A stretch of DNA of 64,000 bases from Siphonodentalium dalli (Eukaryota > Mollusca > Scaphopoda > Gadilida > Siphonodentaliidae). A program made the translations under genes and the position numbers. The stretch covers positions 179,586,556 to 179,650,555 of the forward strand of contig CP136067.1 in assembly GCA_032622095.1 (NCBI GenBank), in the 5' to 3' direction. Positions 4,166 through 60,631 of this stretch are shown here, one piece after another. Position 1 is the first letter of the stretch. The number at the start of each line of letters is the position of its first letter. The notes below the pieces were generated by a model, which saw only the letters and a list, made by a program, of their open reading frames with translations, was not told the DNA's origin and did not search any database.

Positions 4166-4306
4166 CCCGCAAATTTTCTTTGGTTTGCTATTTTTCGATA
4201 AATTGACTAATGGAGTGATGTAGACTGTAAATGTGTCTCGCATAGCGTGAACATTGGTTGTATTATTGTCGTGTTGCAAGTATAGGACATAGAAGTTGTG
4301 ATTAAA

Positions 4307-6489: not shown

Positions 6490-7030
6490 AGGATATGATC
6501 CATACCTTACAGGCGATGTCGGAAGGGATGCTTTTGCGTTTGCATGTACCAAACATAATAAGGAAATTACGATGAAGGAGTTATTTTCAGGGGTTGAGAC
6601 GGGCCTTGCTAGTGAAACCGGAAATAATCTCTCGCCATATCATATTTCGCCCCAAAAATATGCCATTATTGATGTGCCCTATTGTATTGATGATCGTACC
6701 CATGGTGTTGATTCTAAGTTCATGTCAGCTGCCTCTACACAGAGGGGCACGGTGAGTTTAAAGCCTCATATAACGACATATTCTTATTAAATGATCCATA
6801 TCCTAGTACCGGCGATGTTGGAAGGGATGCTTCTGCGTTTAAATGTACCCATCATAATAGGGAAATTACGCTGAATGAGTTATTTTACGGGGCTGAGACG
6901 GTCCTCGCCGGTGAAACCGGGAGGGATTTCTCGCCACATTCTGCCGCGATTGATGTGCCATATTGTTATGATGATCGTACACATGTTGTTGACTCTCAGT
7001 TCATTCCAGCTGTCTCAACACAGAGAGGCG
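6490..7030 (+). repeat. in-ORF tandem duplication of a ~290-bp module
   Basis: Two neighbouring stretches in the ORF2 extension are alike at protein level: 'GDVGRDAFAF...EITMKELFSGVETGLA...VPYCIDDRTHGVDSKF...STQRG' (about 6490-6750) and 'GDVGRDASAF...EITLNELFYGAETVLA...VPYCYDDRTHVVDSQF...STQRG' (about 6785-7030). DNA similarity is also clear. The copies are in different frames because of an indel near 6745-6790. A charged repeat module ahead of the endonuclease is unusual. Confidence 0.8.
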
Positions 7031-7141
7031 TAGGTAAGGTCGGAGAATTGATTCACACGAGTAGAAGTATATTATTCGAGTCTCACAACTATATGTATAA
7101 TACTGATTACGCGACTGGCGGTACAAATACATACATATACG

Positions 7142-7356
7142 ACGATGTTGATGATGACGATGATGGTGGTGAATCTGACGCTAGTGATTGCGACGACGAT
7201 GATGTTGCTTTTGAGTTTTATGACGACTACGATAACGGTGGTGATGATGATGGTGATGATGATGAAGACGGTAGGGATGATACATGTAATGCTGCTGATG
7301 ATGGTGATGATGATGATAATGATGATGATGATAATGATGATGATAATGATGGGATG
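7142..7356 (+). repeat. GAT/GAC-rich microsatellite coding an aspartate tract
   Basis: An impure (GAT)n run, densest at 7,236-7,353. In the ORF2 frame it encodes runs of Asp with Gly, Asn and Glu, about 70 residues, ending 4-5 residues before the endonuclease begins. Being a trinucleotide repeat it leaves the frame intact. An open frame in another phase (Met-rich) is a shadow of it. Confidence 0.85.
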
Positions 7357-9460: not shown

Positions 9461-9946
9461 AGGGAACCCGGCACTTGCGCGTATCAATCTAATAAATAAA
9501 CCTTTAAACTTTACAATTGCGCACCGAGAGATAACGAGCACCGCGCCAACGTGCATATCACCACCCTTAGGGTTGCTACGTTTAAGCGCTTCCCGTACAA
9601 ATTAAATGCGATCAAAAATATTCGCACGGCGACTTATTGGATGAAAAAGTATTACCCCGATGAATGGTAGAGAAGGCCATTGTGGTATTTTGCCCTAGTA
9701 ACAACTACAGTAGTAGTTTTCATTATCTTGACCCACCGATTTTGGTGGAAATTTGTTAAACGACAATTACCAAGGTTAGCCATTATGTATAATAAGCAGT
9801 TAGACCAGCGACCTGAGGATGCCCCGAATGCCGTGTCCAAAGGGCCCATCGACGAAGCAGTGGAGACGGATGGACCAAAGCAGTCTGCGCCATTCTGGGA
9901 CAACACTCATGAACGCCTTTTTCCAATTATAGCCACCAGAGGCTAA
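9461..9946 (+). pseudogene. C-terminus of a single-pass membrane protein, possibly env-like, of the LTR element
   Basis: The frame running to TAA 9944 reads a Cys-containing ectodomain-like segment ('TFKLYNC', 'TATYWMKKYYPDEW'). A hydrophobic helix of about 20 residues follows (about 9692-9748, Val/Ile/Leu-rich and bounded by W and HRFWWK), then a basic stop-transfer patch and a ~60-residue acidic/proline tail. Two in-frame stops interrupt it, TAA at 9497 and TAG at 9668. A single late transmembrane helix with cytoplasmic tail, between gag and the 3' LTR, is what an envelope-like third ORF of an LTR element would look like. Only the last ~160 codons survive and no fusion peptide or cleavage site can be seen, so it could equally be a captured membrane protein. 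It meets the truncated RT at 9440-9460. Confidence 0.4.
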
Positions 9947-22896: not shown

Positions 22897-23295
22897 TTAA
22901 CCCTTTACCCAACAGAACGGCCCTGTGCCAATGCATTCTCTTATATATGCGAGTCGACCATAGGTCGCCTCGCATATATAAGAGAATGCATTGGCTTAAC
23001 ACATTAAAAATTAAAAAATTGTTAAAGAATGTAAGAAAAAATGGTAAAAAGTGTTAAAAAAAGATTTTTTTAGGCCAATGCATTCTCTTATATATGCGAG
23101 GCGACCTATGGTCGACTCGCATATATAAGAGAATGCATTGGCACAGGGCATAACTGTAACTATCACAATGTGGTCAAGGAGCCGGTTCCAATGATATCCA
23201 TATTTGTATGGTTCTATTGAGACAGACCGAAGATATTTTAGGCTGTTGAAGCTTTATTTGGCCGGTTTTGTCCGGTTTGTTGGGTAAAGGGTTAA
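22897..23295 (+). mobile_element. piggyBac-like MITE with double palindrome, copy 1
   Basis: TTAA|CCCTTTACCCAACAGAACGG at the left; the right end is the complement of CCCTTTACCCAACAAACCGG followed by TTAA. Palindrome A is 22928-22994 and palindrome B 23075-23141, separated by an AT-rich spacer. Each has 26-bp perfect arms and a 15-base centre that itself pairs CGACC/GGTCG. B is the reverse complement of A. TTAA duplication and CCC ends are piggyBac hallmarks. Confidence 0.9.
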
Positions 23296-24282
23296 AAGAC
23301 TTCCCCTGTTGTCAACCCAGAGTGCATCGGAATTCAAACTAAGCGTTATTCCCCTTCCATTGAGAATAATAGACTTTACAGTAAAGGTCGGATCAAACTT
23401 AAACACAGAACACTTCAGTACCTCAACAAAACCACCTGTTCACAGTTTATTTGACCAGATAAGTTGATAATACAATGTTTTGGAGCTTCCTCTTTCAAAC
23501 GGTATATAATATGTCATATATTTTAGATATTGTGATCTGGGGGTTCGAAAATTAAGTGGACCTTTAACACCTCCGTTAAAATGGTGTATCGCTGACTCAA
23601 ATCTGATTTACTCTGATTATAAAACTCAAATTATGAGTTAGGAAAAATCAGTCAGCATCATCTTCTGCTGCTTGAAAATATGTTTTCCGAAATTCGACAT
23701 CAACTTGAAAGCATTACACCCCGTAATGTCCAGAAATAGACATGCACGGACGCCCTTACGAGAGGTCACAAAGGGTCACAACTCCCTGTCCGATCAGTGG
23801 CGATCGCAAATTAATTTCGGAATATAAGACGATTAAAAGTATCGTCATCAATACGGTATGTTGTGAGAGCTGACGTACGGATACATACGTATACTTATTT
23901 ACGAATTGGTAGACATGTTTTATTCATGCAAATATGTTATATGCGGCCATGCTAGTGGAAATACTATGTGTTTACATTTGTAATAACACGTGTTGGTGAA
24001 ATCCAGTTTGAACTAGGAATCACCATATATGGAATTTTGTTAAAATCGCTCATCCTCCAAACCGCCAAGAAAAACCGTTACTATAGGACTTTTTCGGCAA
24101 TTCGCGATTGGCATTGTTGTGAGTATTTATTGGTAATAAACTAATTTGGATAACTAAATCGGCTTATTATGAAATTTCGTATTTGTTGTAGCTGGATGAT
24201 ATGGGGGGGGGGGGGGGGGGGGGGCGCTTCGAATCTGATTATGTATCTTTAAAAATGTTCTATCTCGTCCTAAATATGTTTC
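23296..24282. other. dispersed-repeat copy and non-coding sequence
   Basis: 23330-23520 is the second copy of the 18780-18960 repeat. The rest shows no gene. A run of 22 G occupies 24203-24224. Confidence 0.55.
24203..24224 (+). repeat. poly-G tract (22 G)
   Basis: Uninterrupted G run, just before an inverted-repeat element that itself contains another G-rich stretch at 24555-24580. Confidence 0.95.
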
Positions 24283-24622
24283 ATATAGTTTCCGGCGTAT
24301 AAAATAATAAGTATGAATCGAAGACACCTGTCCGGAAACACTTCCAGCAATTAATATTGATTTTATATCGATATAATCTTATATGTGGTAATCAAGTGGG
24401 ACATTTATTTGGTACAATTTTTTATCAGATATAGTTATCCCGATTGCTACGCTCCGAACGAACGTGAGCCGAAAAATGTCCCAAATTGATTGTATATTAT
24501 ACCAGAACATTCTAAATAAAATCAATACAAATTGATAAAAGCGTTTCCAGACAGGGGGGCGGGGGGTGTGGGGGGGTGGGTCTAAGATTCATTTTTATTA
24601 TTTTATATCCAGGAAACTATAT
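24283..24622. mobile_element. foldback MITE, ATATAGTTTCC ends
   Basis: ATATAGTTTCCGGCGTATAA at 24283 pairs with the complement at 24600-24622. Inner 'gtcc-gaaac-ctt--a-caatt--tattgattttat' also pairs with the right arm. The right arm carries an extra G-rich insertion (~24553-24583). Confidence 0.7.
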
Positions 24623-24659
24623 AAAACTTGTTATAAGAAGACATAGACCATCCTTGTTT

Positions 24660-25050
24660 TTAACCCTTTACCCAACAAACCGGCCAAAATCGGGCAAATA
24701 AAGCTTCAACAGCCTAAAATATCTTCGGTCTGTCTCAATAGAACCATACAAATATGGATATCATTGGAACCGGCTCCTTGACCACATTGTGATAGTTACA
24801 GTTATGCCCTGTGCCAATGCATTCTCTTATATATGCGAGTCGACCATAGGTCGCCTCGCATATATAATAGAATGCATTGGCCTAAAAAAAAATGTTTTTA
24901 ACACTTTTTACCATTTTTTCTTACATTCTTTAACAATTTTTAATGTGTTAAGCCAATGCATTCTCTTATATATGCGAGGCGACCTATGGTCGACTCGCAT
25001 ATATAAGAGAATGCATTGGCACAGGGCCGTTCTGTTGGGTAAAGGGTTAA
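24660..25050 (-). mobile_element. piggyBac-like MITE with double palindrome, copy 2
   Basis: TTAA at 24660-24663 and 25047-25050, orientation opposite to copy 1 (begins CCCTTTACCCAACAAACCGG). Both palindromes are present; one arm has a single change (ATAATAG for ATAAGAG). Confidence 0.9.
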
Positions 25051-27250: not shown

Positions 27251-27856
27251 ATGCTTTCATTTAGAAAGCATATGATTTTATTCTTGAACGCATTTGTAGA
27301 GACAAAATCCTCTGGGGTATAGCACAATTCATATTTAAAACGTATTCAAATTTGTCAAAAACCCTTTTGAAAGTCGACCATCAGTCTGACCATCAAACCC
27401 ACCTACTAATTGGCTCATTGGTAAGATTTAATTATTTTCTGGTATGGATAACGTGCCAATGGTATGGTAATATTTTTTTGTGTCTTTTCGAAAACCCATT
27501 TTTTTTATTACAGGCGATAGTTTGATTTTCTAGACGCGGAACAAAAGTCAAAACATGGACAAATTTATTTTTAAATGGCGATATCTGAACATCAATCCCC
27601 CCGTGCACGAAAGGAGTCACGTGATCGCTCCCATTATTATAACGTTTTACATTATTTTCGGCATAGAAAACATACAAATATTTGTATGGTAATAATTAGG
27701 ATGAGGCATCTTGAAACGAAAGCGAAAAAGAACGCGAGTAAAACCATACAATGAAACATACACTTGCACATTGACATAAATATTCGCCGCGGGACATATG
27801 CACCGCTGATCAAGCGGATGCTTGTGGGCCATGCTTAATTCCTATGATCTTGTAAT
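27251..27856. other. non-coding, nothing recognised
   Basis: No gene seen. Confidence 0.4.
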
Positions 27857-28189
27857 GGCAAACTGATGCTGTTAAGAAAAACTACCGTTATTTTTTCTAA
27901 AGAGTGTTCGCGGTGTTCGAGTAATCTGAACATATGCAGGAAAAGCCATTATGTGTGTCAAACATTCAAAAACATATATTGAGAAATATTTGAATACTGG
28001 TTGTATTAGTTGTTGCAAATCGTTTTGGAAGCATCAGCGCAGGCATTGTTGAAATATTGTAAAGTATATCGGTTCTTGAATGTTTCATACCGCTGGCATT
28101 TCTATGATTCGTCCAGATTAGCCAAACATCACGAAAATGACAATTTTATAACAAATAACGGTACTTATTTTTAACAGCATCAGTTTGCC
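27857..28189. mobile_element. 333-bp element with ~40-bp inverted ends
   Basis: GGCAAACTGATGCTGTTAA at 27857 pairs with the complement ending at 28189; the pairing continues through 'accgttattt'. No target duplication is obvious. Confidence 0.65.
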
Positions 28190-28532
28190 CTACCAACATC
28201 ATAGTAATTCAGCAGGAACCCAACATCATAGCAGACTAACGTGACCACTTGCTCAGGAGTGATATGGATTATCCAGTAACATTGGTCAAGCCCCACTGTG
28301 AGTGCATATGGTATACGAAAAACGTGTAAATAAAGTGAGCGAGATGTGAGCGGCGAATTGGAATTATATCATTCGATCTATAATAGCACGCATCTCTGTT
28401 TGTATTTACGTTCATTCATCGATGTTTGATTATTCCAATAAAAAACTTAAAAAAATAAATAAAAACTTGGTCAATCCCGGCTATCCCGTTGATATACCAG
28501 ACACTCTCATAAGCTCTGCACGTCTTGAGCGC
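28190..28532. other. non-coding
   Basis: Nothing recognised before the segmental repeat begins. Confidence 0.4.
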
Positions 28533-29548: not shown

Positions 29549-30131
29549 ATGGTCGGAATTTGTTTTATGTATACATGTATTCATTACATCTTCTCTTTAT
29601 ACCACCTGATTTGGTGGCTAAACGAATGAATAAACTATATATGAAACACTAGGTTGGGGTGTTAACTGAATCATGCCATGAATCTCTTTTCCAGCTACGT
29701 TCGTATAATTCATACTCCGCCATCAGTTCAAAACTTGTGAACTTTTTGATGTTGTGACTCAGAAGTTTATAACATTGAAACAACAGTGCGGGTAATATAT
29801 GTTTTTGTTAATACCTGTTCCGTAATAATGTATTTCATTGCGGGTGAAGGTCCCAACTCGATATTTCATGATTTAAGTGACTGTGGGCGATTTTGCTTTT
29901 CGTCGAATACAATCATTTAATTTCTCCAGGGCAATGAATGAAATGTTTATTGGGATACCGGCTCACCACAGTCACAAAATGCATGCATTTCCTGCACCAT
30001 CCATACTCTGAAGTAGATTATTACGAGGAACACGTAATAATAAAGAAATATATTCCTGCCTTGTTTGTTCAATGTTATAAAGTTCCCTGTCAACAGTAGT
30101 CAGAACATGAAAATCTTCCCAGTCCTTTGAT

Positions 30132-30176: not shown

Positions 30177-31647
30177 ATTTATCAAGCTCGTTTCATGAAA
30201 TCTTATATACCAACATAACTCGTTGGAGATCCTCTATATCCATATATGTATAATATAAACAAAAGGGTTGGACCTCGGGTGCTGGCATACCCGCACAGTC
30301 CCAAATTGAAGCATGGTAAGAACGGATTTAAAATAAACAGGAGAATAGCCCAGAAAATGCAACAACGTGATTTTGGAACTCATTTGAAAGCACTCTCAAT
30401 GGTGAGCCTGCATACCAAATTTAATTGAGCTCCTATGAGCTATCGTTAATATGTCTGTAAGGACGAACAAAACAACCAAGATTTTCAGATAAACAAAGAA
30501 GGATAACTCTAGAGTGGAAAACGAGATAGAAGTTATTTGCACCTATTTTGAAAGTATTCATGACAGTTAACCTTCATACCGAATTCATTCAGATCAGATA
30601 ACCCATAGCTGAGATATATTCCCTGACGGACGGGCAATATTTCAAACGGGCAAGGTATATCCTGCAGTATACGGGTATAATTATCCTATATCATATTGGT
30701 TATGGTACGTTATGCATTTGCGTGCGTACACACGAACCTTCCAGGGAAACGTGGCATGTATATCTCACATATCCCTTTGAAGAATATTAAATGAAGCCAA
30801 TCGGCCACAAAGTAGGTGTATTCCTTCCAGAACTCTCTTTCACGAATCACGATTTTCCGTGAATATTCGATTGGAGTACATTGTATATGCTTTAAGCCTT
30901 TAACCCTTCCATGACTGGAGCTTCCTGAAATTTTGCGAAAACCCTGTGCTAATACAATATTCTCTTATATAAGAATGTTTCATACAACCATTGGCTTTTC
31001 TTTCATTAGTCCTGGTTTTCTGCAATGGGTCATGAGAGCCGATCTAACGTTTCCTTTCTCCGATACCTCGGACCTCCTATATGTAGCGTTGCGCGGTGTG
31101 GTGTAATTTATATAGCATATCCTTGCTCACGCAGGCGATATTGGAATCGAATTGCTATAACGTCTCTCACCATTCTACCAAACCGGTCAATGCATGTCTT
31201 CTGTGAAGCTGAATAACTACTGATACCGATTTAACCAATTGACGATTCTGTAATATCATCCAAGCGATTCGCACACTGTTATCTCACAGTCTATATGCGT
31301 TTCACGCGTGACATCGTCCTGCGTTTGTGTTTTCCTGACCGTGGATCGTTCTCTGTGGCTTCTATATACGGATATAAAGTTGTGACATAAACGTTCGCAT
31401 TGATATTACGACAATGTTTGATTCAGGTGTTGTGTTTATCACTTGAAGGAATATGAACGCGGAAAGAGTGTTATAGTATAATGTAACAATGGTCTTCCTG
31501 AAATTAGTTTTCGAAAACACATAGGAAATATGTTTGGAGATCTGGGGGATGCCTCCAAAAGAAAAGCAGTTCCATCGGGGTCAGTATTTTTATTGGTTAA
31601 CTTTATTTTCAGTGAGTCAAAGTGAAGTGAAACACTCGGTTGGGGTG

Positions 31648-32046
31648 TTAACCCTTTACCCAACAAACCGGCCAAAACCGGCCAAATAAAGCTGCAACAG
31701 CCTAAATTATCTTCGGTCTGTCGCAATAGAACCATACAAATATGGATATCATTGGAACCGGCTCCTTGACCACATTGTGATAGTTACAGTTATGCCCTGT
31801 GCCAATGCATTCTCTTATATATGCGAGTCGACCATAGGTCGCCTCGCATATATAAGAGAATGCATGGCCTAAACAAAATCTTTTTTTAACACTTTTTACC
31901 ATTTTTTCTTACATTCTTTAACAATTTTATAATTTTTAATGTGTTAAGCCAATGCATTCTCTTATATATGCGAGGCGACCTATGGTCGACTCGCATATAT
32001 AAGAGAATGCATTGGCACAGGGCCATTCTGTTGGGTAAAGGGTTAA
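31648..32046 (-). mobile_element. piggyBac-like MITE with double palindrome, copy 3, with readable empty site
   Basis: TTAA at both ends. The flanks read 'ggttggggtg-TTAA ... TTAA-ctgg-tcatgcc'. Copies 1 (near 29660) and 3 (near 35385) of the segment read 'ggggtgTTAActg-atcatgcc' without the insert. One palindrome arm lacks a base pair at 'gcatggcc'. Confidence 0.95.
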
Positions 32047-33655: not shown

Positions 33656-34251
33656 TAATTGAGCTCCTATGAGCTATCGTTAATATGTCTGTATGGATGA
33701 ACAAAACAACCAAGATTTTCAGATAAACAAAGAAGGATAACTCTAGAGTGGAAAACGAGATAGACGTTATTTGCACCTAGTTTGAGAGCATTAATGACGG
33801 TTAACATCCATACCGAATTCATTCTGATCAGATAACCCATAGCTGAGATAGCTGATATATATTCCCTGACGGACGGACACTTTTTCAAACGGACAAGGTA
33901 TATCCTGCAGCATACGGGTATAATTATCCTATATCATATTGGTTATGGTACGTTATGTATTTGCGTGCGTACACACGAACCTTCCAGGGAAACGTGGCAT
34001 GTATATCTCACATATCCCTTTGAAGAATATTAAATGAAGCCAATCGGCCACAAAGTAGGTGTATTCCTTCCAGAACTCTCTTTCATGAATCACGATTTTC
34101 CGTGAATATTCGATTGGAGTACATTGTATATGCTTTAAGCCTTTAACCCTTCCATGACTGGAGCTTCCTGAAATTTTGCGAAAACCCTGTGCTAATACAA
34201 TATTCTCTTATATAAGAATGTTTCATACAACCATTGGCTTTTCTTTCATTA

Positions 34252-37083
34252 GTCCTGGTTTTCTGCAATGGGTCATGAGAGCCGATCTAACGTTTCCTTT
34301 CTCCGATACCTCGGACCTCCTATATGTAGCGTTGCGCGGTGTGGTGTAATTTATATAGCATATCCTTGCTCACGCAGGCGATATTGGAATCGAATTGCTA
34401 TAACGTCTCTCACCATTCTACCAGACCGGTCAATGCATGTCTTCTGTGCAGCTGAATAACTACTGATACCGATTTAACCAATTGACGATTCTGTAATATC
34501 ATCCAAGCGATTCGCACACTGTTATCTCACAGTCTATATGCGTTTCTCGCGTGACATCGTCCTACGTTTGTGTTTTCCTGGCCGTGGATCGTTCTCTGTG
34601 GCTTCTATATACGGATATAAAGTTGTGACATAAACGTTCGCATTGATATTACGACAATGTTTGATTCAGGTGTTGTGTTTATCACTTGAAGGAATGTGAA
34701 CGCGGAAAGAGTGTTATAGTATAATGTAACAATGGTCTTCCTGAAATTAGTTTTCGAAAACACATAGGAAATATGTTTGGAGATCTGGGGGATGCCTCCA
34801 AAAGAAAAGCAGTTCCATCGGGGTCAGTATTTTAATTGGTTAACTTTATTTTCAGTGAGTCAAAGTCCATATTTTAAATCAGAACGAGATAACTTATTCC
34901 CTATTTACAGTAGAAGCGATTACAGCCTTCATAAACTGAAATTACTATTGAGCACATCCCGACCGTCCACTATGAGGAAAACCTGTAAGTTTATCAAAAT
35001 TATAACGTCAACCGTCTGTTCTCCTGGGCAGTAAACGAAGATACACATTAACGTCGTGTATCTTCATCGTTTACGCCCAAAAAAACCCAATTCGTTCTGA
35101 TATTAAGTATAATATTTATGTTTTCAACATCCACCATACTTGTGTTTTTAAAAATATTTGTCAAACTATATACCGTGTGCCGATGCTGTTAAGTTAAGTT
35201 AGCTATATAAAGAATAAGTGCATTGCAAAAACACGAATACTCAGTTGCTTAACAGCCTTCGCTCACGGTATAATGGTCGGAATTTGTTTTATGTATACAT
35301 GTATTCATTACATCTTCTCTTTATACCACCTGATTTGGTGGCTAAACGAATGAATAAACTATATATGAAACACTAGTTTGGGGTGTTAACTGGATCATGC
35401 CATGAATCTCTTTCCCCGCTACGTTCGTAGAGATCATACTCCGCCATCAGTTCAAAACTTGTAAACTTTTTGATGTTGTGACTGGGAAGTTTATAATATT
35501 GAAACAACAGTGCAGGTAATATATGTTTTTGGTAATACCTGTTCCGTAATAATGTATTTCATTGCAGGTAAAGGTCCCAACTCGATATTTCATGATTAAG
35601 TGACTTTGTGGGTGATTTTGCTTTGCGTCGATTACAATCATTTAACTTTCCCAGGCCAATGGATGCAATGTTTATTGGGGTATGGGCTAACCAAAGTAAC
35701 AAAAATGCATGCATCTCGAGTTGGCACCATCCATACTATGAAGTAGATTACAGAGGAACAAGTATTAATAAAGAAATATATTCCCTGCCTTGTTTGTTCA
35801 ATGTTATAAAGTTCCCTGTTAAAAGTGGTCTGAACATGAAATTCTTCCCACTCGTTTGATAAATTTGATTCACAACTCGTCTACGAATCGTTGTGAATCA
35901 AATTTATTAACAAAATCGTTTCATAAAATCTTATATCCCAACATAGCTCGTTGGAGATCCTCTATATCCATATGTGTATAATATAAACAAAAGGGTTGGA
36001 CCTCGGGTGCTGGCATACCCACACGGTGCCAAATTGAAACATGGGCAGAACGGATTTAAAATAAACAGAGGAGAATAGCCCAGAAAATGCAACAACGTCA
36101 TTTTGGAACTCATTTGAAAGCATTCTCAATGGCGAGCCGGCATACCAAATTTAATTGAGCTCCTATCAGCTATCGTTAATATGTCTGTTGGGATGAACAA
36201 AACAACCAAGATTTTCAGATAAACAAAGAAGGATAACTCTAGAGTGGAAAACGAGATAGATGCTATTTGCACCTATTTTGAGAGTATTCATGACGATGAA
36301 CCTCCATACCGAATTCATTCAGATCAGATAACCCATAGCTGAGATATATTCCCTGACGGACGGAGAATATTTCAAACGGACAATGTATATGTGACCCGCC
36401 ATATCAAAATCCAGTCGTAAGTCGGGATTTTTTTTACCCTGTGCCAATGCATTCTCTTATATATGCGAGTCGACCATAGGTCGCCTCGCATATATAAGAG
36501 AATGCATTGGCCTAACAATTTTTTATCATTTTTTTAAAATAAATGTTTCTTACAATTTTTAGGACATAAAATAAAAAAACATCCATTACCCTGCAGGGAG
36601 CCCCACACATATATAGAAGCATATAGAAGAGTGTCGTCTGCTCATGTTTGTCTGGGGCTCTGTATGGGTGAAATTATAAAATTGTTAAAGAATACAAGAA
36701 AAAATTATTAAAATTGTAAAAATTGTTAGGCCAATGCATTCTCTTATATATGCGAGGCGACCTATGGTCGACTCGCATATATAAGAGAATGCATTGGCAC
36801 AGGGTAATAAAATCCCGACTTGCGACTGGATTTGATATGGCGGGTCACATATCCTGCAGTATACGGGTATAATTATCCTATATCATATTGGTTATGGTGC
36901 GTTATGCATTTGCGTGCGTACACTCGAACCTTCCGGGGAAACGTGGCATGTATATCTCACATATCCCTTTGAAGAATATTAAATGAAGCCAATCGGCCAT
37001 AAAGTTGGTGTATTCCTTCTAGAACTCTCTTTCACGAATCACGATATTCCTTGAATATTCTATTTGAGTACATTATATATGCT
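34252..37083 (+). repeat. segmental tandem repeat, copy 3 (~2.8 kb including a MITE)
   Basis: Collinear with copy 1, plus the ATAT-flanked MITE at 36391-36848. It leaves collinearity where a different part of the TTAACCCTTCCATGAC-type element begins (37084). Confidence 0.9.
36391..36848. mobile_element. ATAT-flanked MITE carrying the same double palindrome
   Basis: Ends GTGACCCGCCATATCAAAAT and its complement (about 40 bp, through 'ccagtcg-aagtcgggatt'). ATAT is duplicated at 36387-36390 and 36849-36852. Copies 1 and 2 of the segment show the empty site 'ggtATATcctgcag' (near 30652 and 33898). Inside are palindrome A (36444-36510) and palindrome B (36731-36797), identical in plan to the TTAA family, with a longer spacer containing a GGAGCCCC...GGGGCTC stem. 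Confidence 0.9.
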
Positions 37084-37246
37084 TTAACACTTAAGGCGCC
37101 TCGCATATATATGGAAATGCATTGGCCTTAAAATATTTACTTTGACCTTGTCAGCCGGAGCAATCTCTTATACATGGGAGACTCGCATATATAAGAGAAT
37201 TAATTGGTACAGGTCTTTAATGCTGCACCCGTCATGAAAGGGTTGA
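37084..37246. mobile_element. decayed palindrome MITE of the third (TTAACCCTT) family
   Basis: Starts TTAACACTT; contains CGCCTCGCATATATATGG, 'aatgcattggcc' and 'gactcgcatatataagagaat'. Ends 'tctttaatgctgcacccGTCATGAAAGGGTTGAA', the inverted partner of TTAACCCTTCCATGAC seen at 30900, 34143 and 54082. Confidence 0.65.
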
Positions 37247-38719: not shown

Positions 38720-39464
38720 GTTAAAGACATATTATGGAATTGTTCGGGTCTGTGAAATGTATGTTAGTACTCAGGCGCTATGCCAACCTATAGAATGTAG
38801 CATTCTACTAACATCGCCGAAAATTTCAAAGAAATCCACCATATACCACTCCATATAATAACATGGTCTGAACTACGTCCAATTGTAAATATTTACATAT
38901 CGATTCGGGACGCAACTATCGGCGATAATCTAATACAAAATGATTTCGCCATCGAGAGTCATTGCATTTTATTAAAGTGATGTGAAACACTCCGGTAGGG
39001 TGATCCAATAGAAATGGAGAATAATCTTGCTCAAAGTTGTTCTTTTTACGAATATTAATCCAAATTGCCCACACACACTGTAATTCTGATATAATAATTA
39101 AATGTACTGACTCTGGATGGCGAAATCATTTGTGTTTATATGTCGCCAATTGTTGCGTCCCGAATCCAGATGTAAATATTTACAACTGAGCGTAGTTTTG
39201 ACGATGTTTTCTATTGAGTGGTATGGCCGATTCCTTTGAAATTTTCGACGATGTTAGTATAGAATCCTACATCCTCCAGGTTGGCATAATGCCTGAATAC
39301 TAACTAATCAGTTTCACGAACTCGAAGTCATTAATATGTCTTTAGTATATATAAATGACCGTGTGTATGATCAATTTGGAATAATATTCGTAACATATAA
39401 CTACTTTCAGCAAGATTATGCTTAGTTTCTATTTGATCACCCTACCGGAGTTTTTCACATCACT
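38720..39464. mobile_element. interleaved inverted repeats (B-A-B'-A')
   Basis: Segment A (38974-39075, starting TTAAAGTGATGTGAAACACT) is inverted at ~39370-39468. Segment B (~38720-38966, including 'ttgtaaatatttaca', 'gattcgggacgcaac', 'gatttcgccatc') is inverted at ~39112-39360. The order suggests an element A-B...B'-A' that inserted in, or recombined with, another copy. Confidence 0.75.
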
Positions 39465-39859
39465 TTAACCCTTTACCCAACAGAACGGCCCTGTGCCAAT
39501 GCATTCTCTTATATATGCGAGTCGACCATAGGTCGCCTCGCATATATAAGAGAATGCATTGGCTTAACACATATTAAAAATGATAAAATTGTCAAAGAAT
39601 GTAGAAAAATATTATAAAAATTGTTATTTTATGTTTTTAGGCCAATGCATTCTCTTATATATGCGAGGCGACCTATGGTCGACTCGCATATATAAGAGAA
39701 TGCATTGGCACAGGGCATAACTGTAACCATCACAATGTGGTCAATGAGCCGGTACCAATGATATCCATATTTGTATGGTTTTATTGAGACAGACCCAAGA
39801 TCATTTAGGCTGTTGCAGCTTTATTTGGCCGTTTTGGGGTTTGTTGGGTAAAGGGTTAA
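39465..39859 (+). mobile_element. piggyBac-like MITE with double palindrome, copy 4
   Basis: TTAA at 39465-39468 and 39856-39859. It sits exactly in the TTAA that ends the preceding inverted repeat (CACATCACTTTAA). Both palindromes intact. Confidence 0.9.
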
Positions 39860-40974: not shown

Positions 40975-43900
40975 GGTGTTATTATAATATCGGTACAGTG
41001 GGTGACAAAACAAACAGCCGGTCGTGTTATTATAATATCGGCACAGTGGGTGACAAACAGCCGGTCGTGTTATTATAATATCGGTACAGTGGGTGACAAA
41101 ACAAACAGCCGGTCGTGTTATTATAATATCGGTACAGTGGGTGACAAACAGCCGGTCGTGTTATTATAATATCGGTACAGTGGGTGACAAACAGCCGGTC
41201 GTGTTATTATAATATCGGTACAGTGGGTGACAAACAGCCGGTCGTGTTATTATAATATCGGTATAGTGGGTGACAAACAGCCGGTCGTGTTATTATAATA
41301 TCGGTACAGTGGGTGACAAACACCCGGTCGTGTTATTATAATATCGGTACAGTGGGTGACAAACAGCCGGTCGTGTTATTATAATATCGGTACAGTGGGT
41401 GACAAAACAAACAGCCGGTCGTGTTATTATAATATCGGTACAGTGGGTGACAAACAGCCGGTCGTGTTATTATAATATCGGTACAGTGGGTGACAAACAG
41501 CCGGTCGTGTTATTATAATATCGGTACAGTGGGTGACAAAACAAACAGCCGGTCGTGTTATTATAATATCGGTACAGTGGGTGACAAACAGCCGGTCGTG
41601 TTATTATAATATCGGTACAGTGGGTGACAAACAGCCGTCGTGTTATTATAATATCGGTACAGTGGGTGACAAACAGCCGGTCGTGTTATTATAATATCGG
41701 TACAGTGGGTGACAAACAGCCGGTCGTGTTATTATAATATCGGTACAGTGTGTGACAAACAGCCGGTCGTGTTATTATAATATCGGCACAGTGGGTGACA
41801 AACAGCCGGTCGTGTTATTATAATATCGGTACAGTGGGTGACAAAACAAACAGCCGGTCGTGTTATTATAATATCGGTACCGTGGGTGACAAACAGCCGG
41901 TCGTGTTATTATAATATCGGTACAGTGGGTGACAAACAGCCGGTCGTGTTATTATAATATCGGCACAGTGGGTGACAAACAGCCGGTCGTGTTATTATAA
42001 TATCGGTACAGTGGGTGACAAACAGCCGGTCGTGTTATTATAATATCGGTACAGTGGGTGACAAGCAGCCGGTCGTGTTATTATAATATCGGTACAGTGG
42101 GTGACAAACAGCCGGTCGTGTTATTATAATATCGGTACAGTGGGTGACAAACAGCCGGTCGTGTTATTATAATATCGGTACAGTGGGTGACAAACAGCCG
42201 GTCGTGTTATTATAATATCGGTACAGTGGGTGACAAACAGCCGGTCGTGTTATTATAATATCGGTACAGTGGGTGACAAACAGCCGGTCGTGTTATTATA
42301 ATATCGGTACAGTGGGTGACAAACAGCCGGTCGTGTTATTATAATATCGGTACAGTGGGTGACAAACAGCCGGTCGTGTTATTATAATATCGGTACAGTG
42401 GGTGACAAACAGCCGGTCGTGTTATTATAATATCGGTACAGTGGGTGACAAACAGCCGGTCGTGTAATTATAATATCGGTACAGTGGGTGACAAACAGCC
42501 GGTCGTGTTATTATAATATCGGTACAGTGGGTGACAAACAGTCGGTCGTGTTATTATAATATCGGTACAGTGGGTGACAAACAGCCGGTCGTGTTATTAT
42601 AATATCGGTACAGTGGGTGACAAACAGCCGGTCGTGTTATTATAATATCGGTACAGTGGGTGACAAACAGCCGGTCGTGTTATTATAATATCGGTACAGT
42701 GGGTGACAAACAGCCGGTCGTGTTATTATAATATCGGTACAGTGGGTGACAAATAGCCGGTCGTATTATTATAATATCGGTACAGTGGGTGACAAACAGC
42801 CGGTCGTGTTATTATAATATCGGTACAGTGGGTGACAAACAGCCGGTCGTGTTATTATAATATCGGTACAGTGAGTGACAAACAGCCGGTCGTGTTATTA
42901 TAATATCGGTACAGTGGGTGACAAACAGCCGGTCGTGTTATTATAATATCGGTACAGTGGGTGACAAACAGCCGGTCGTGTTATTATAATATCGGTACAG
43001 TGGGTGACAAACAGCCGGTCGTGTTATTATAATATCGGTACAGTGGGTGACAAAACAAACAGCCGGTCGTGTTATTATAATATCGGTACAGTGGGTGACA
43101 AACAGCCGGTCGTGTTATTATAATATCGGTACAGTGGGTGACAAACAGCCGGTCGTGTTATTATAATATCGGTACAGTGGGTGACAAACAGCCGGTCGTG
43201 TTATTATAATATCGGTACAGTGGGTGACAAACAGCCGGTCGTGTTATTATAATATCGGTACAGTGGGTGACAAACAGCCGGTCGTGTTATTATAATATCG
43301 GTACAGTGGGTGACAAACAGCCGGTCGTGTTATTATAATATCGGTACAGTGGGTGACAAACAGCCGGTCGTGTTATTATAATATCGGTACAGTGGGTGAC
43401 AAACAGCCGGTCGTGTTATTATAATATCGGTACAGTGGGTGACAAACAGCCGGTCGTGTAATTATAATATCGGTACAGTGGGTGACAAACAGCCGGTCGT
43501 GTTATTATAATATCGGTACAGTGGGTGACAAACAGTCGGTCGTGTTATTATAATATCGGTACAGTGGGTGACAAACAGCCGGTCGTGTTATTATAATATC
43601 GGTACAGTGGGTGACAAACAGCCGGTCGTGTTATTATAATATCGGTACAGTGGGTGACAAACAGCCGGTCGTGTTATTATAATATCGGTACAGTGGGTGA
43701 CAAACAGCCGGTCGTGTTATTATAATATCGGTACAGTGGGTGACAAATAGCCGGTCGTGTTATTATAATATCGGTACAGTGGGTGACAAACAGCCGGTCG
43801 TGTTATTATAATATCGGTACAGTGGGTGACAAACAGCCGGTCGTGTTATTATAATATCGGTACAGTGAGTGACAAACAGCCGGTCGTGTTATTATAATAT

Positions 43901-46135
43901 CGGTACAGTGGGTGACAAACAGCCGGTCGTGTTATTATAATATCGGTACAGTGGGTGACAAACAGCCGGTCGTGTTATTATAATATCGGTACAGTGGGTG
44001 ACAAACAGCCGGTCGTGTTATTATAATATCGGTACAGTGGGTGACAAAACAAACAGCCGGTCGTGTTATTATAATATCGGTACAGTGGGTGACAAACAGC
44101 CGGTCGTGTTATTATAATATCGGTACAGTGGGTGACAAACAGCCGGTCGTGTTATTATAATATCGGTACAGTGGGTGACAAACAGCCGTCGTGTTATTAT
44201 AATATCGGTACAGTGGGTGACAAACAGCCGGTCGTGTTATTATAATATCGGTACAGTGGGTGACAAACAGCCGGTCGTGTTATTATAATATCGGTACAGT
44301 GTGTGACAAACAGCCGGTCGTGTTATTATAATATCGGCACAGTGGGTGACAAACAGCCGGTCGTGTTATTATAATATCGGTACAGTGGGTGACAAAACAA
44401 ACAGCCGGTCGTGTTATTATAATATCGGTACCGTGGGTGACAAACAGCCGGTCGTGTTATTATAATATCGGTACAGTGGGTGACAAACAGCCGGTCGTGT
44501 TATTATAATATCGGCACAGTGGGTGACAAACAGCCGGTCGTGTTATTATAATATCGGTACAGTGGGTGACAAACAGCCGGTCGTGTTATTATAATATCGG
44601 TACAGTGGGTGACAAACAGCCGGTCGTGTTATTATAATATCGGTACAGTGGGTGACAAACCGCCGGTCGTGTTATTATAATATCGGTACAGTGGGTGACA
44701 AACAGCCGGTCGTGTTATTATAATATCGGTACAGTGGGTGACAAACAGCCGGTCGTGTTATTATAATATCGGTACAGTGGGTGACAAACAGCCGGTCGTG
44801 TTATTATAATATCGGTACAGTGGGTGACAAACAGCCGGTCGTGTTATTATAATATCGGTACAGTGGGTGACAAACAGCCGGTCGTGTTATTATAATATCG
44901 GTACAGTGGGTGACAAACAGCCGGTCGTGTTATTATAATATCGGTACAGTGGGTGACAAACAGCCGGTCGTGTTATTATAATATCGGTACAGTGGGTGAC
45001 AAACAGCCGGTCGTGTAATTATAATATCGGTACAGTGGGTGACAAACAGCCGGTCGTGTTATTATAATATCGGTACAGTGGGTGACAAACAGTCGGTCGT
45101 GTTATTATAATATCGGTACAGTGGGTGACAAAGAGCCGGTCGTGTTATTATAATATCGGTACAGTGGGTGACAAACAGCCGGTCGTGTTATTATAATATC
45201 GGTACAGTGGGTGACAAATAGCCGGTCGTGTTATTATAATATCGGTACAGTGGGTGACAAACAGCCGGTCGTGTTATTATAATATCGGTACAGTGGGTGA
45301 CAAACAGCCGGTCGTGTTATTATAATATCGGTACAGTGGGTGACAAACAGCCGGTCGTGTTATTATAATATCGGTACAGTGGGTGACAAACAGCCGGTCG
45401 TGTTATTATAATATCGGTACAGTGGGTGACAAAACAAACAGCCGGTCGTGTTATTATAATATCGGTACAGTGGGTGACAAACAGCCGGTCGTGTTATTAT
45501 AATATCGGTACAGTGGGTGACAAACAGCCGGTCGTGTTATTATAATATCGGTACAGTGGGTGACAAATAGCCGGTCGTGTTATTATAATATCGGTACAGT
45601 GGGTGACAAACAGCCGGTCGTGTTATTATAATATCGGTACAGTGGGTGACAAACAGCCGGTCGTGTTATTATAATATCGGTACAGTGAGTGACAAACAGC
45701 CGGTCGTGTTATTATAATATCGGTACAGTGGGTGACAAACAGCCGGTCGTGTTATTATAATATCGGTACAGTGGGTGACAAACAGCCGGTCGTGTTATTA
45801 TAATATCGGTACAGTGGGTGACAAACAGCCGGTCGTGTTATTATAATATCGGTACAGTGGGTGACAAATAGCCGGTCGTGTTATTATAATATCGGTACAG
45901 TGGGTGACAAACAGCCGGTCGTGTTATTATAATATCGGTACAGTGGGTGACAAACAGCCGGTCGTGTTATTATAATATCGGTACAGTGGGTGACAAACAG
46001 CCGTCGTGTTATTATAATATCGGTACAGTGGGTGACAAACAGCCGGTCGTGTTATTATAATATCGGTACTGTGGGTGACAAACAGCCGGTCGTGTTATTA
46101 TAATATCGGTACAGTGGGTGACAAACAGCCGGTCG
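40975..46135 (+). repeat. 43-bp satellite array, about 119 monomers, with higher-order repeat
   Basis: Monomer: GTGTTATTATAATATCGGTA followed by CAGTGGGTGACAAACAGCCG and GTC (43 bp). A 48-bp variant has an extra ACAAA (GACAAAACAAACAGCC). Variant monomers recur at fixed distance: CAGCCGTCG at 41631 and 44182, CAGTGTGTG at 41746 and 44297, GTGTAATTA at 42461 and 45012, CAGTCGG at 42540 and 45091, all 2,551 bp apart. This equals 59x43 plus three 5-base insertions minus one base. A 994-bp period is nested inside. The repeating open frame at the left edge is incidental. Confidence 0.97.
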
Positions 46136-48330: not shown

Positions 48331-48439
48331 CCACGGGGATCACCCATCATCCAGGCCGGCAAATTTAATAACTTTGCGTAACCTATTTTCGTTCGCCTAG
48401 TTTGTGCCTATTTCAGACTAATTGCTAAACCATTTAAGA

Positions 48440-48560
48440 AATGGATGTTGATTTGCTTGCGTTCCATAGAGTATGGATGCAAGTTGGTCTGACATTTTGT
48501 GTGGAGTGTCAGACCAACTTGCATCCATACTCTATGGAACGCAACAAAATCAACATTCAT
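48440..48560. repeat. ~55-bp hairpin, nearly perfect
   Basis: AATGGATGTTGATTT...GCGTTCCATAGAGTATGG...GTTGGTCTGACA pairs with TGTCAGACCAAC...GGAACGC...AATCAACATTCATT; 12-base loop. The phrase ATGGATGCAAGTTGG from the stem appears again at 48667. Confidence 0.9.
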
Positions 48561-49055
48561 TACTTATATTTACACTCAACCGAGTCAACTGGCAGATTAA
48601 AAGAGTTATAAGCGTCCATTTCCAACGTTATTATCGTAGCTCGGAGCAAGTTGCGTCTACAGAAAAATGGATGCAAGTTGGGGTCAGCGCGCGACGTCAT
48701 GTGACGTAATTTCGACCAACCAACGTCCTGCATTCATGTTCCACAATAGGAATGCACTCGTGAGTGTAAATATAGGTTAATAGAAGCGTTTCACAAACTG
48801 TTATATATCACTAATACTGGTATTATTACACAGCAATGTGTAACTGATTGAAGTTATAATTCGAAATGTCCATTTTGGGACCTGATTGAGCAATAATTAA
48901 GGCGGGAATTGGTGATTGCGAGACCCACAGAAAACTGTTACACGACCTGTTTGTCCGTCGCGTCATTCTCCTTTAAAGTAACCAAGCAAACTGAACGGTC
49001 GTTTACCTCAAATTTGCAGGCTTGCATCACCCAAGGTCTATAATACACTAAATCA
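48561..49055. other. non-coding
   Basis: Nothing beyond a stem-derived phrase at 48667. Confidence 0.4.
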
Positions 49056-49431: not shown

Positions 49432-50553
49432 CAGTACCAGTCAGAAGAAGTGGTATATTGAGGCGCGCCTTTATTGCGATATTGAACGCGCTTAATTTCT
49501 AAAAAGGCGCGATTATAGCGCAGTACCACAAATATGTCGCGCTTATTATTGCGATATATACCGTGCGCAAAATTGCGATAACTATTGTGCACAAATTGTA
49601 CATAGAGTGTACATAAAGCATATACAACTATAATTATATACAAATATAAACCATTTTATTATATGCTTCCCTATTAAATAGTGGGAAATTGCCGTGGCGT
49701 AGAGCGTTATATCCATCGCCTGGACCGACTCGATGGATAGCACTGACCGACTCGATGGATAACACAATAGTATTACTTTTTCGGAGATTACTTCCGGTTT
49801 ATAGCGGCGAATCACATTAAGTTTCAAAGCGTATCAATAACAGCCGGACTATAGTTTTAATTATTTATTTTCACGGTTCATAAACTGTTATTTAATTGTT
49901 ATCATGTTAACTCATTTGTTTTAATATATTCTTATCACTAATTTATGTAGACATTAATTTTCTCGCATCATTTCAGAATAAAACAATGGGGCTATTTCTT
50001 ATGGCGGCTATGCTCGATATTTGTCATTCAGTGGTGAGCAAATCAATTGATGGAATGTAAACAAAATGCAAATGTCGAAGCTTTCTAACAATTTGAAGTG
50101 AACTGTAGGACAAAATTAGCAGTTTTGGTGCGGTTTATAGCGCATATAATAAAAAGAACACCTACGGGTTTTGGTTGAATACCCGGATTATCTCATTCGT
50201 GGGTACAAGGAAATACAGAATTTCCACTCGCGGCTTGCAGCCGCTCGTGGAAATTTTGTATTTCCTTGTACCCACGAATGAGATAATCCGCGTATTCAAC
50301 CAAAACCCGTATGTATTCTCTATGTCTCTATTTATGCAATAAACAATATAGCAGAAGAAATAATTGGTTCAAATGTCGCAATTTTAAGCGCCCGATATCG
50401 TAATATTAAGCGCGAAATATTGCGATATTAAGCGCAAAATATTGCAATAATATCGCAAGCGGCGCGCTTATAAGCGTTTCCACTTGCAATATTATTGCGA
50501 TATTGGGCGCGAAAATAGCGCGCTTAATATATCGCTTCTTTTGACTGGTACTG
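49432..50553. mobile_element. Tc1/mariner-like MITE, TA-flanked
   Basis: TA|CAGTACCAGTCAGAAGAAG at the left, complement of CAGTACCAGTCAAAAGAAG at the right, |TA. CAGT ends and a TA duplication are typical of Tc1/mariner. Subterminal DNA is packed with GCGATATT/AAGCGC motifs on both sides. No transposase. It contains the hairpin 50164-50310. Confidence 0.85.
50164..50310. repeat. foldback of the 'GCGYATAATAAAAAGAA' family, copy 2
   Basis: Preceded by GCGCATATAATAAAAAGAAC. Arms of ~70 bp: ACGGGTTTTGGTTGAATAC...GGTACAAGGAAATAC...CCACTCGCGGC and complement, nearly perfect. Confidence 0.9.
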
Positions 50554-52460: not shown

Positions 52461-52859
52461 TTAACCCTTTACCCAACAGAACGGCCCTGTGCCAATGCAT
52501 TATCTTATATATGCGAGTCGACCATAGGTCGCCTCGCATATATAAGAGAATGCATTGGCTTAACACATTAAAAATTATAAAATTGTTAAAGAATGTAAGA
52601 AAAAATGGTAAAAAGTGTTAAAACAAGATTTTTTTAGGCCAATGCATTCTCTTATATATGCGAGGCGACCTATGGTCGACTCGCATATATAAGAGAATGC
52701 ATTGGCACAGGGCATAACTGTAACTATCAAAATGTGGTCAAGGAGCCGGTTCCAATGCTATCCATATTTGTATGGTGTTAGTGAGACAGACCGAACATAT
52801 TTTAGGCTGTTGAAGCTTTATTTGGCCGGTTTTGGCCGGTTTGTTGGGTAAAGGGTTAT
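52461..52859 (+). mobile_element. piggyBac-like MITE with double palindrome, copy 5
   Basis: TTAA at the left (52461-52464); the right end reads TTAT, one base changed. Palindromes present with one arm change (TTATCTTA for TTCTCTTA). Inserted within a 47560-family repeat. Confidence 0.9.
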
Positions 52860-54081: not shown

Positions 54082-54310
54082 TTAACCCTTCCATGACTGG
54101 AGCTTCCTGAAATTTTTGCATTCTCTTATATATGCGAGTTTCCGAAAGGGAGCCTCGCATATATAAGAGAATGAGTTGTGCCTTCATTGGCCTAACAATA
54201 TTTACATTTACCATGTACGCCAGTGCATTCTCCTATATATGTGAGGCTCGCTATATGGGGGCTCACATACATAAGTGAATGCAGTTGCACATGATCTTTA
54301 ATGCTGCACC
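54082..54310. mobile_element. palindrome-bearing MITE of the third family, most complete copy
   Basis: TTAACCCTTCCATGACTGGA, then a palindrome GCATTCTCTTATATATGCGA / TCGCATATATAAGAGAATG with a different centre (TTTCCGAAAGGGA). A second diverged palindrome (TGCATTCTCCTATATATGTG...) follows, then 'tctttaatgctgcacc'. Confidence 0.75.
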
Positions 54311-55527
54311 AGCGTTGCCTTCATTATCTTCACCTATTTTGTTAAACTCCAATGGTATCTTGGCGGTTCTTGGATATTGGTATTATTGTGTATAATTATA
54401 GATCGACACAGATTATTGCGTATGCGCCAGCTCGTGAGATGGCGAAGATAGCACTGCGTAACACACCTGAGGAAATCACAATAATCCACAATATGTCAAT
54501 CCGGTGCAAAATTAGTGTAGGTCGTGGGGGTGGCAGAGACTAGGAATTTTGTACTGATAAGATTCATTATTTGCGTCGTGCCATGTGGAGATATCGATGA
54601 GAGCTATTTTCGTGAGGTCTTCAAGTATAATTCCCTACAAAGCTGATTCTCATAGTATGGATTCAAGGTCGGGTTCGTTTGGATCAAATAGATGTACACT
54701 CCTCGCAAATTCTCAACAACATACCCTATATTACATAAGCCCATTCAGTGCATGATTAGATTGGCAAATCTTTCTGAACTCGGTTGGCTGTCGGCTTCAC
54801 TGCCAAATGTACTTGCCATAACATAGATATAGGTTCCCTACCTATGAGGTACATGTATACGAACAGAACGTCCCACTTAAAGCGACTCGTGTTATTCAGA
54901 ATTTAAGTATATGTAAACATATAGTAATTATTTGCCCGGCAGTTCAAATGCATGTAGGTTGATATACGACGTACAAAATATACGGACTGTAGATATGAAA
55001 TAAACTTATTCAAGCAATACAGAGTAGGCTCAAACTTCGAAAAATAAAACTCCAAAGAATACCTGTTTTGATGTAACAATAAAGAGCGTTTGTTTTTGTA
55101 TGTATAAATGATAATAAACTGTACTTGTGCGGAAAGAAGCAAATGGATTTCTGTCATTTCGGCACGTATTTTAAGATTATATAATCGAGTACGTGAGTAT
55201 ATAATCGCGGACATAATATGTTAATCATTAGAACGGGAGTGAAGAGAGAAATTGCTAATTGAAGATGTGCTCCATTTGGGTGTTCTGCATGGGGCATAAC
55301 CTTCCTCAATTAATATGTTACCCATATGATTGCTATATTTATATCGATATACAACGCCATCTGCATAACGTTTACAGATGTAGAGATTCTCGTTGGCAGA
55401 TTCGTTTTCCTTTATTAATTTATATATGGGCGAGTATCTTAATTCTATGAAATGCAATTAATTTTTTTGTTCGTGCGCACGGACGAAGTGGTTCGTTCAC
55501 ACGAAGTAGTTGATAGTTCGCTTCTAG
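54311..55527. other. non-coding, nothing recognised
   Basis: Open frames on the minus strand (54903-55457) are AT-rich and featureless. Confidence 0.4.
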
Positions 55528-59384: not shown

Positions 59385-59741
59385 CACTGATGGTCCTTGC
59401 GGTGTGTATGCAGTTAAAATAGTCACACCCGTTAAAGTTGCCACAAACAGAAATAATATTAAAATATAGACATATTTTGTTCTTATATCAATCATAAATA
59501 TAAAGTACAGAGCATGTTACTGTCAAGTTTGTACGCTGTGTTATGTAAACGTTTTTGGCTTTTGTTTACATAACAAGGCGTACATACTTAACTATAACAT
59601 AATATTTACGTAATATGTATGATTGGTATAAGAACAAAATCTGTCTATATTTGAATATTATTTCTGTTTATGGCGGTTTTGTCGGATGTGACTATTACAG
59701 TGTAACAGAAATGCCCAACCGCGAAGGCCATTCGTGCCTTT
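59385..59741. mobile_element. palindromic derivative of the 'GCGGCGTT' MITE
   Basis: One arm (59411-59550) carries GTTAAAATAGTCACACCCGT, 'aaacagaaataatattaaaatatagac', 'ttgttcttatatcaatcataaata'; the other arm is its inverse (59575-59710). Both arms derive from the same end of the 16784/58010 family. Confidence 0.8.
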
Positions 59742-60131
59742 AACCCTTTACCCAACAAACCGGCCAAAACCGGCCAAATAAAGCTTCAACAGCCTAAAAT
59801 ATCTTCGGTCTGTCTCAATAGAACCATACAAATATGGATATCATTGGAACCGGCTCCTTGACCACATTGTGATAGTTACAGTTATGCCCTGTGCCAATGC
59901 ATTCTCTTATATATGCGAGTCGACCATAGGTCGCCTCGCATATATAAGAGAATGCATTGGCCTAAACAAAATCTTTTTTTAACACTTTTTACCATTTTTT
60001 CTTACATTCTTTAACAATTTTATAATTTGTAATGTATTAAGCCATTGCATTCTCTTATATATGCGAGGCGACCTATGGTCGACTCGCATATATAAGAGAA
60101 TGCATTGGCACAGCGCCCTTCTGTTGGGTAA
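59740..60131 (-). mobile_element. piggyBac-like MITE with double palindrome, copy 6 (right end lost)
   Basis: TTAA at 59740-59743. Palindromes present (one arm CCATTGCATT instead of CCAATGCATT). Ends abruptly at GTTGGGTA, without AAGGGTTAA. Confidence 0.85.
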
Positions 60132-60231
60132 TACAAAGGCAATAATACATACATCTATATACAAAAATGAGATCAATGGAAATTAGGGATTCAACAACAA
60201 TCCAGAAGACTTATACAGGTATTAATATATA

Positions 60232-60631
60232 TTAACCCTTTACCCAACAAACCGGCCAAAACCGGCCAAATAAAGCTTCAACAGCCTAAAATATCTTCGG
60301 TCTGTCTCAATAGAACCATACAAATATGGATATCATTGGAAACGGCTCCTTGACCACATTGTGATAGTTACAGTTATGCCCTGTGCCAATGCATTCTCTT
60401 ATATATGCGAGTCGACCATAGGTCGCCTCGCATATATAAGAGAATGCATTGGCCTAAAAAAAATCTTTTTTTAACACTTTTTACCATTTTTTCTTACATT
60501 CTTTAACACTTTTATAATTTTTAATGTGTTAAGCCAATGCATTCTCTTATATATGCGAGGCGACCTATGGTCGACTCGCATATATAAGAGAATGCATTGG
60601 CACAGGGCCGTTATGTTGGGTAAAGGGTTAA
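60232..60631 (-). mobile_element. piggyBac-like MITE with double palindrome, copy 7
   Basis: TTAA at 60232-60235 and 60628-60631; both palindromes intact; 100 bp from copy 6 in the same orientation. Confidence 0.9.

Follow-up and report, generated by a model that had tools for sequence, protein, structure and literature searches.

MITEs can be present in huge numbers of copies, and what lies between their ends is usually regarded as filler. The locus studied here raises the question of how one and the same interior, a pair of hairpins around a spacer (the cassette), came to lie in MITEs that have different ends and different target duplications. In a stretch of 64,000 nt from the genome of Siphonodentalium dalli (the window), the cassette is carried both by TTAA MITEs (family F1) and by an element flanked by ATAT (family F2), and remnants of a further family (F3) are also present (Table 1).

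Table 1. Cassette carriers of the window, their parts and their paralogous empty sites
Feature	Position	Strand	Remarks
F2 MITE (ATAT element) with cassette	36391..36848	.	inverted ends, empty paralogous sites, genome family
Target duplication ATAT, left copy	36387..36390	.	
Target duplication ATAT, right copy	36849..36852	.	
F2 left arm	36391..36436	+	GTGACCCGCC...GGGATTTTTTTTA
Left cassette junction	36437..36445	+	CCCTGTGCC, common to F1, F3 (left side) and F4
Hairpin A	36443..36511	+	69 nt, folds alone: 27+5 pairs around the 3-nt loop ATA, T.C mismatch
F2 spacer	36512..36729	.	218 nt, contains an inner GAGCCCCA...TGGGGCTC pair
Part of F2 spacer homologous to the TTAA-element spacer	36671..36722	+	52 nt
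Hairpin B	36730..36798	-	69 nt, folds alone as A does; exact reverse complement of A, single T.C mismatch included
Right cassette junction	36796..36804	+	GGCACAGGG
F2 right arm	36805..36848	-	
Paralogous empty site 1 for the F2 insertion	30657..30660	.	self-BLAST and alignment
Paralogous empty site 2 for the F2 insertion	33900..33903	.	self-BLAST and alignment
F1 TTAA MITE with cassette	22897..23295	+	
F1 TTAA MITE with cassette	24660..25050	-	
F1 TTAA MITE with cassette	31648..32046	-	empty paralogous TTAA at 29662-29665 and 35386-35389
F1 TTAA MITE with cassette	39465..39859	+	
F1 TTAA MITE with cassette	52461..52859	+	right flank TTAT
F1 TTAA MITE with cassette	59740..60135	-	one damaged end
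F1 TTAA MITE with cassette	60232..60631	-	
F3 MITE remnant (TTAACCCTTCCATGAC)	30900..31010	+	CCCTGTGC and collapsed hairpin; same at 34143
F3 MITE	54082..54330	+	two degenerate hairpins
F3 MITE remnant	37087..37246	+	decayed hairpins

The ATAT element and its hairpins

The ATAT element is a real insertion, because two paralogous copies of its locus in the window lack it: the empty sites read GTATATCC, and the filled site reads GTATAT[GTGACC...GGTCAC]ATATCC. It was inserted as a whole F2 unit, and the coordinates and ends that the preliminary description had given for it were correct, since 36387-36408 and 36831-36852 form a perfect 22-nt inverted match whose outer 4 nt are ATAT. Nor is it a single oddity: in the genome searched (2.23 Gb, 9 contigs), the best 40 of 1614 first-look candidates, once scored, all gave (nearly) full-length matches at 97-100%, in 40 places that include the window copy. 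The duplication had been described as ATAT and not TTAA, and this is borne out by the two empty sites and by the flanks of the family, in which identical 4-mers, mostly ATAT, were found in 28 of the 41 copies with readable flanks. Identical 2-mers (27/41) are expected from ATAT, identical 3-mers and 5-mers occur in one copy of 41 each, and the per-position agreement was 35-38 of 41, versus 12-21 in a shifted control. As the non-palindromic duplications AAAT and ATTT are also present, these 4-mer counts indicate that the F2 duplication is 4 bp; at one locus it could be read as TA, a reading ruled out by the non-palindromic duplications. F2 thus has the terminal inverted repeats, fixed-length target duplication, short length (458 bp in the window copy) and high copy number of a MITE; it is transposase-less, with no stop-to-stop frame of at least 110 aa listed at 36391-36848, and folds end to end (z -32.7). 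The TTAA duplication of piggyBac-type MITEs was not found in it, ATAT, AAAT and ATTT being present instead.

When compared to the consensus of the TTAA elements, hairpins A and B of the F2 element show 0 differences in 138 nt, and the 16 hairpins of the eight clean cassettes of the window hold five differences in all, none of them within the ATAT element. A 27-nt hairpin-arm pattern, with at most 3 mismatches allowed, matched the window 35 times and none of 100 shuffles, which rules out a chance origin of the hairpin matches. The spacer is another matter, with 218 nt in the F2 element versus 70-79 nt in the seven window copies of F1, although the 52 nt beside hairpin B are ∼85% alike to the F1 spacer. 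Alignment of the right half of the F2 spacer with the F1 spacers gave scores of 57-69, always above the maxima of 300 shuffles each (37-50 overall, 43-49 for the best score of 69); the score of the left half was not above shuffles. The statement that both element types hold the same cassette therefore stands for the hairpins and only in part for the spacer. A longer F2, L085 1005-2267 (1,263 bp), exceeds the common form by ∼800 bp and agrees with it in ends, hairpins and half-spacers, so that the common F2 spacer may, to judge from sequence, be an internal-deletion product of a longer form; alternatively, the extra sequence may have been inserted in L085. The longest stop-to-stop frame touching this long element has 136 aa. 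In the window, no Rfam RNA family matched at the gathering score.

The neighborhood of these elements is itself repetitive. The segment 28532-37087 consists of diverged tandem copies of one region (90-98% between pieces) and is the source of both sets of MITE empty sites. A satellite array of 119 copies of a 43-bp unit (97% matches) lies at 40976-46135, and a LINE-like remnant at 4286-9605, in which a reverse-transcriptase frame, whose protein-search matches are reverse-transcriptase-domain proteins (PF00078), is accompanied by frames that look cysteine-rich and endonuclease-like by eye. Long inverted repeats without cassette (48432-48569, 50149-50325, 24255-24651, 27832-28214, and 38722-39344) are perhaps further foldback or MITE families.

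Carrier families, their junction and their variation

We have examined a sample of 264 kb made up of the window and twenty 10-kb stretches at round coordinates, chosen without regard to content, and found four families with the cassette: F1 (TTAA-CCCTTTACCCAACA), F2 (GTGACCCGCC), F3 (TTAA-CCCTTYCATGAC), and F4 (TTAA-CCCTTTSAGTGYCAGG). The first bases of F1, F3, and F4 are TTAACCCTTT or TTAACCCTTC. F1 is a piggyBac-type (TTAA) MITE in its duplication and its CC[C/T]T ends; TTAA plus CCCTTTACCC is present on both sides in five of the seven window copies, one of the other two having TTAT on one side and the other a damaged end. In its copy at 31648-32046, ∼500 bp immediately to the left are missing from the filled locus and present in both empty copies. 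The two F4 copies read contain a single hairpin and an incomplete spacer. The most diverged family is F3, with a mean pairwise difference of 16.8% (4 copies) versus 3.7% in F1 (22 copies) and 3.1% in F2 (45 copies), and it differs from the other families by paired substitutions in the hairpin centre (columns 30/40 and 31/39) and in the stem (5/65); the derived centre TCGACCATAGGTCGC is common to F1, F2, and F4. A tandem array of six hairpins with ∼104-nt spacing adjoins an F3 arm at L051 (C1:6540617-6541516).

The edge of the cassette is nearly the same in every family and lies just outside the hairpin base, at CCCTGTG. As the preliminary description had it, F1 and F2 both meet the cassette at CCCTGTGCC/GGCACAGGG. 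In a table of one typed consensus each for F1L, F1R, F2, F3L, and F4 (F3R left out), all 10 pairs agree at 13 positions up to CCCTGTG, and only 1-4 of the 10 agree at the next 11 positions. Whether the breakpoint is constant, which had been proposed as a check, was answered in the sample: of 44 outer junctions carrying no more than 3 mismatches (a count that leaves out more decayed junctions, mostly F3), 42 fall to F1-F4 arms, 41 by pattern and one (L032:5465, F3) by eye. F3R is an exception and mostly starts one base later, at CCTGTG. The two junctions with no recognised arm are both ends of L032 6946-7305. Genome-wide (2.23 Gb), the exact junction plus one hairpin arm occurs 123,984 times, versus 0 for the reversed control. 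It is preceded by C or T in 1,043 of these matches, and the 20 loci read from this list were 12 F1, 3 F3, and 5 F2-type. A recognisable F1, F2, or F3 arm adjoins that junction in 18 of the 20, the F2-type loci L052 and L056 being armless there and L054 armless at its other junction. Apart from this, cassette junctions repeat mostly at ∼7.86 kb in G000:C1:94237018-94292256 (8 copies) and at ∼11.2 kb in C1:820017-920855 (10 copies), which are probably large tandem arrays containing the cassette.

We also searched for relatives without cassette. A 160-bp relative of F4 devoid of hairpins (L039 6227-6386) shares the F4 arm at 93-95% over 43-44 nt, and the point at which cassette-bearing F4 diverges from it lies one base ahead of CCCTGTG in L032 and two bases ahead of it in L030. 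For F2, no contiguous match to the joined arms was present among the best 40 of 1105 candidates; of the 16 F2-arm matches read, 15 had three or all four hairpin arms, and L082, a single end, had none. For F1, the best 40 of 47 candidates included one full-length match to the joined arms, which retains CACAGGG and is therefore a later deletion of the cassette, and this rules it out as a cassette-less founder. In one F1 the cassette is gone from between two GGC triplets. For the transposases of piggyBac (PF13843), the genome has 128 matches, at ∼116 places and with many open frames >500 aa; the four such loci read had no TTAACCCTT ends, and no transposase was tied to F1 or F2. Exact short cassette patterns gave 0 matches in viral_contigs and genome_contigs, a set possibly without this or very near genomes, and blastn gave no relatives in phages. 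The sole match to the string TATATATGCGAG in the literature text available was a maize association study.

The hairpins are the least variable part of the two carriers tested, F1 and F2. Variants shared by at least two copies affect 0/138 hairpin sites, 16/183 arm sites, and 14/79 spacer sites in F1 (n = 22), a depletion with p = 1e-4 versus arms and 3e-7 versus spacer, and 5/138, 14/102, and 27/218 sites, respectively, in F2 (n = 45; p = 0.007 versus arms and 0.004 versus spacer), the sites in this test not being independent. With variants present in at least three copies, the counts for hairpins, arms, and spacer were 0, 11, and 5 in F1 and 1, 6, and 11 in F2 (p 0.003-0.04). The copies were non-random: those of F2, all aligning over at least 93% of the element, were found by whole-element similarity (26 loci), as arm matches (12), in the arbitrary stretches (4), in the C/T list (2), and in the window (1), and those of F1 in the C/T list (12), the window (7), and the arbitrary stretches (3); L001 (the window locus itself), L005 (a duplicate), and L082 (the cassette-less end) were omitted. 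Singletons are also lowest in the hairpins of F1 (13/3026, versus 44/3987 in arms, p 0.002, and 28/1652 in spacer) and are fewer in those of F2 than in its arms (38/6179 versus 48/4510, p 0.01; spacer 86/9705). This deficit is weaker than that of shared variants, and because of it the conservation may be due in part to a lower mutation rate or to gene conversion between copies. In structure shuffles, the proportion of paired cells (88.2%) was reached in 0/500 and the 14 double-change cells in 1/500, but pairs with double changes (4; 356/500) and further pair types (18; 254/500) were not above the shuffles, so two of the five measures did not exceed chance, and the decay of many copies is unpaired. 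All this fits, without proving it, hairpins that are kept in spreading lineages and lost in dead copies.

Origin of the shared hairpins

Four things have been observed here: hairpins shared between four families, their common junction, empty sites for an insertion of F1 and for one of F2, and a deficit of shared variants in the hairpins. We favor, with moderate confidence, the view that other MITEs captured a double-hairpin module from an old TTAA MITE, that their transposases carry it, and that it was conserved while it spread. The much higher divergence of F3, together with the derived centre shared by the others, indicates that the module probably predates F1 and F2, an origin in F3 being the simplest. 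F3, an old piggyBac-like TTAA MITE, would thus have been its first carrier and perhaps the ultimate source, and the version with the new hairpin centre would then have been taken up by F1 and F4 (TTAA) and by F2 (4-bp AWWT duplication). Transfer may have occurred when, on rare occasions, gap repair after excision led to recombination or template switching at the hairpin base, a plausible route because breakage near that base is observed; the module itself would not transpose. Each family would be moved by the transposase that fits its own ends, with the module riding along, and the module would be kept because carriers with intact hairpins spread better. In favor of capture, the hairpins of the ATAT element and of the F1 consensus are identical at 138 of 138 positions while the linked 52 nt of spacer are ∼85% alike. 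The earlier proposal that the cassette had moved between families is strengthened by its presence in four families and not two, with different ends and duplications and a common breakpoint, although the capture step is something that we infer, and among the copies read there was no intermediate caught in the act of transfer. A bolder version, which we regard as doubtful, is that the double hairpin is a portable amplification helper, i.e., a selfish module of second order, thanks to which any host MITE reaches more copies whatever its transposase, and which crosses superfamilies and is under purifying selection of its own.

It could also be the ends that moved, with a hairpin lineage that repeatedly gained new terminal repeats or TTAA families that diverged under hairpin constraint. 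The common first bases of F1, F3, and F4 agree with this, as does the same pattern of conserved interior and variable TIRs in coral CMITEs as published (see below). However, an F4-type element without cassette exists, the F2 arms are unrelated and their duplication is different, and identity falls to chance at one fixed base with no fading, so we consider this unlikely. Nor are we inclined to believe in a cassette that is a transposon of its own, with CCCTGTGCC...GGCACAGGG as termini, and that was inserted into several MITEs, the composites being amplified afterwards. It has constant ends on both sides, TA stands on its flank in F2, in the L032 locus, and in the F4 of L032, and arms are lost in five F2-type loci: both arms at L032 6946-7305 and at L056, which has half a cassette, and one arm at L006, L052, and L054, with breaks in or beside the T-run adjoining CCCTGTG. 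But one-sided arm loss resembles deletion, and nearly all sample junctions (42/44) are inside MITE arms. The bases flanking the cassette differ (GG/CA in F1, TA/TA in F2, and TA in L032 or TT in L030 on the one side of F4), and among the loci read, including the two armless on both sides, no cassette had the consistent target duplication of its own that self-movement would leave. The parasite of MITEs that the preliminary description offered as one possibility is thus hypothetical. Against this transposon speaks also the outcome of the search for joined arms, with no contiguous F2 match among the best 40 of 1105 and, among the best 40 of 47 for F1, one match that goes back to a later deletion.

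Two other explanations were considered. Convergence of the hairpins, as protein-binding or promoter sites that each element needs, would suit the TATATAAG and GCCAAT motifs of the arms (whose meaning is taken from general knowledge) and the fewer shared variants in hairpins than in arms, and yet it is highly improbable, as 138 identical nt of 138 plus a homologous spacer imply descent; convergence is refuted as the origin, and a site function could still be the reason why hairpins are retained. That the ATAT element is a nested, complete TTAA element that lost its ends at 36391-36848 is barely credible. The shared hairpins and part of the spacer would be expected from it, but the 45 F2 copies align over at least 93% of the element, no residue of an F1 arm lies beside the cassette, and the empty sites indicate insertion of the F2 unit as a whole. 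The preliminary description had named such a nested intermediate as the finding that would overturn it, and no trace of it appeared; a nested insertion may have happened in the founder of F2.

Relation to known systems

One interior module, with a nearly fixed edge, is present in four families or more, whose target duplications are of at least two kinds. Should the hairpins promote spread, MITE bursts would have a cause that can be tested; otherwise, parts are still exchanged between transposon families at a reproducible point. Among known kinds, long inverted-repeat (foldback-like) MITEs are similar to F2, which folds end to end, and unlike F1, whose arms are asymmetric outside the cassette. 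Internal sequences are also the subject of a study on the mobility of mPing (PMC9921582).

The preliminary description knew of no system of this kind, and here it has to be amended, as a close precedent exists in the CMITEs of Acropora corals (Wang et al. 2010, PMC2872659). According to the portions of that paper considered here, they are MITE families with different TIRs and a shared interior more conserved than the TIRs, for which the authors suspect a role in transposition. Like F1, F3, and F4, they have TTAA duplications and CC[C/T]T ends, and they also form tandem arrays. However, the six tabulated families all have piggyBac-type ends and an interior of ∼75 bp, and the words hairpin and palindrom- are absent from the main text, whereas here two 69-nt hairpins surround a spacer, are present also in the non-TTAA F2, and adjoin 123,984 exact junctions. 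Different TIRs and a shared, more conserved interior were found in F1-F4 (variants were measured in F1 and F2), and the TTAA duplication was found in F1 and not in F2. Because F2 does not use TTAA, we describe the cassette families as CMITE-like in kind and not as CMITE members, a likeness drawn from the published description and not from interior sequence. Other systems share single traits, as far as their available text goes: in MER6 a conserved module of one mobile element, the SINE V domain, was spread inside a MITE (PMC6887750), but it comes from a SINE and a Mariner element in one variant lineage, and its abstract has no hairpins; Foldback4 of Drosophila (PMC2955051) has inverted-repeat elements built of inserted, deleted, or substituted modules, but these vary inside one family that mostly keeps its ends. 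Beyond the CMITEs, the present work has a family that does not use TTAA, hairpins that form an explicit pair, four families whose junction is nearly fixed, and the variant-sharing test.
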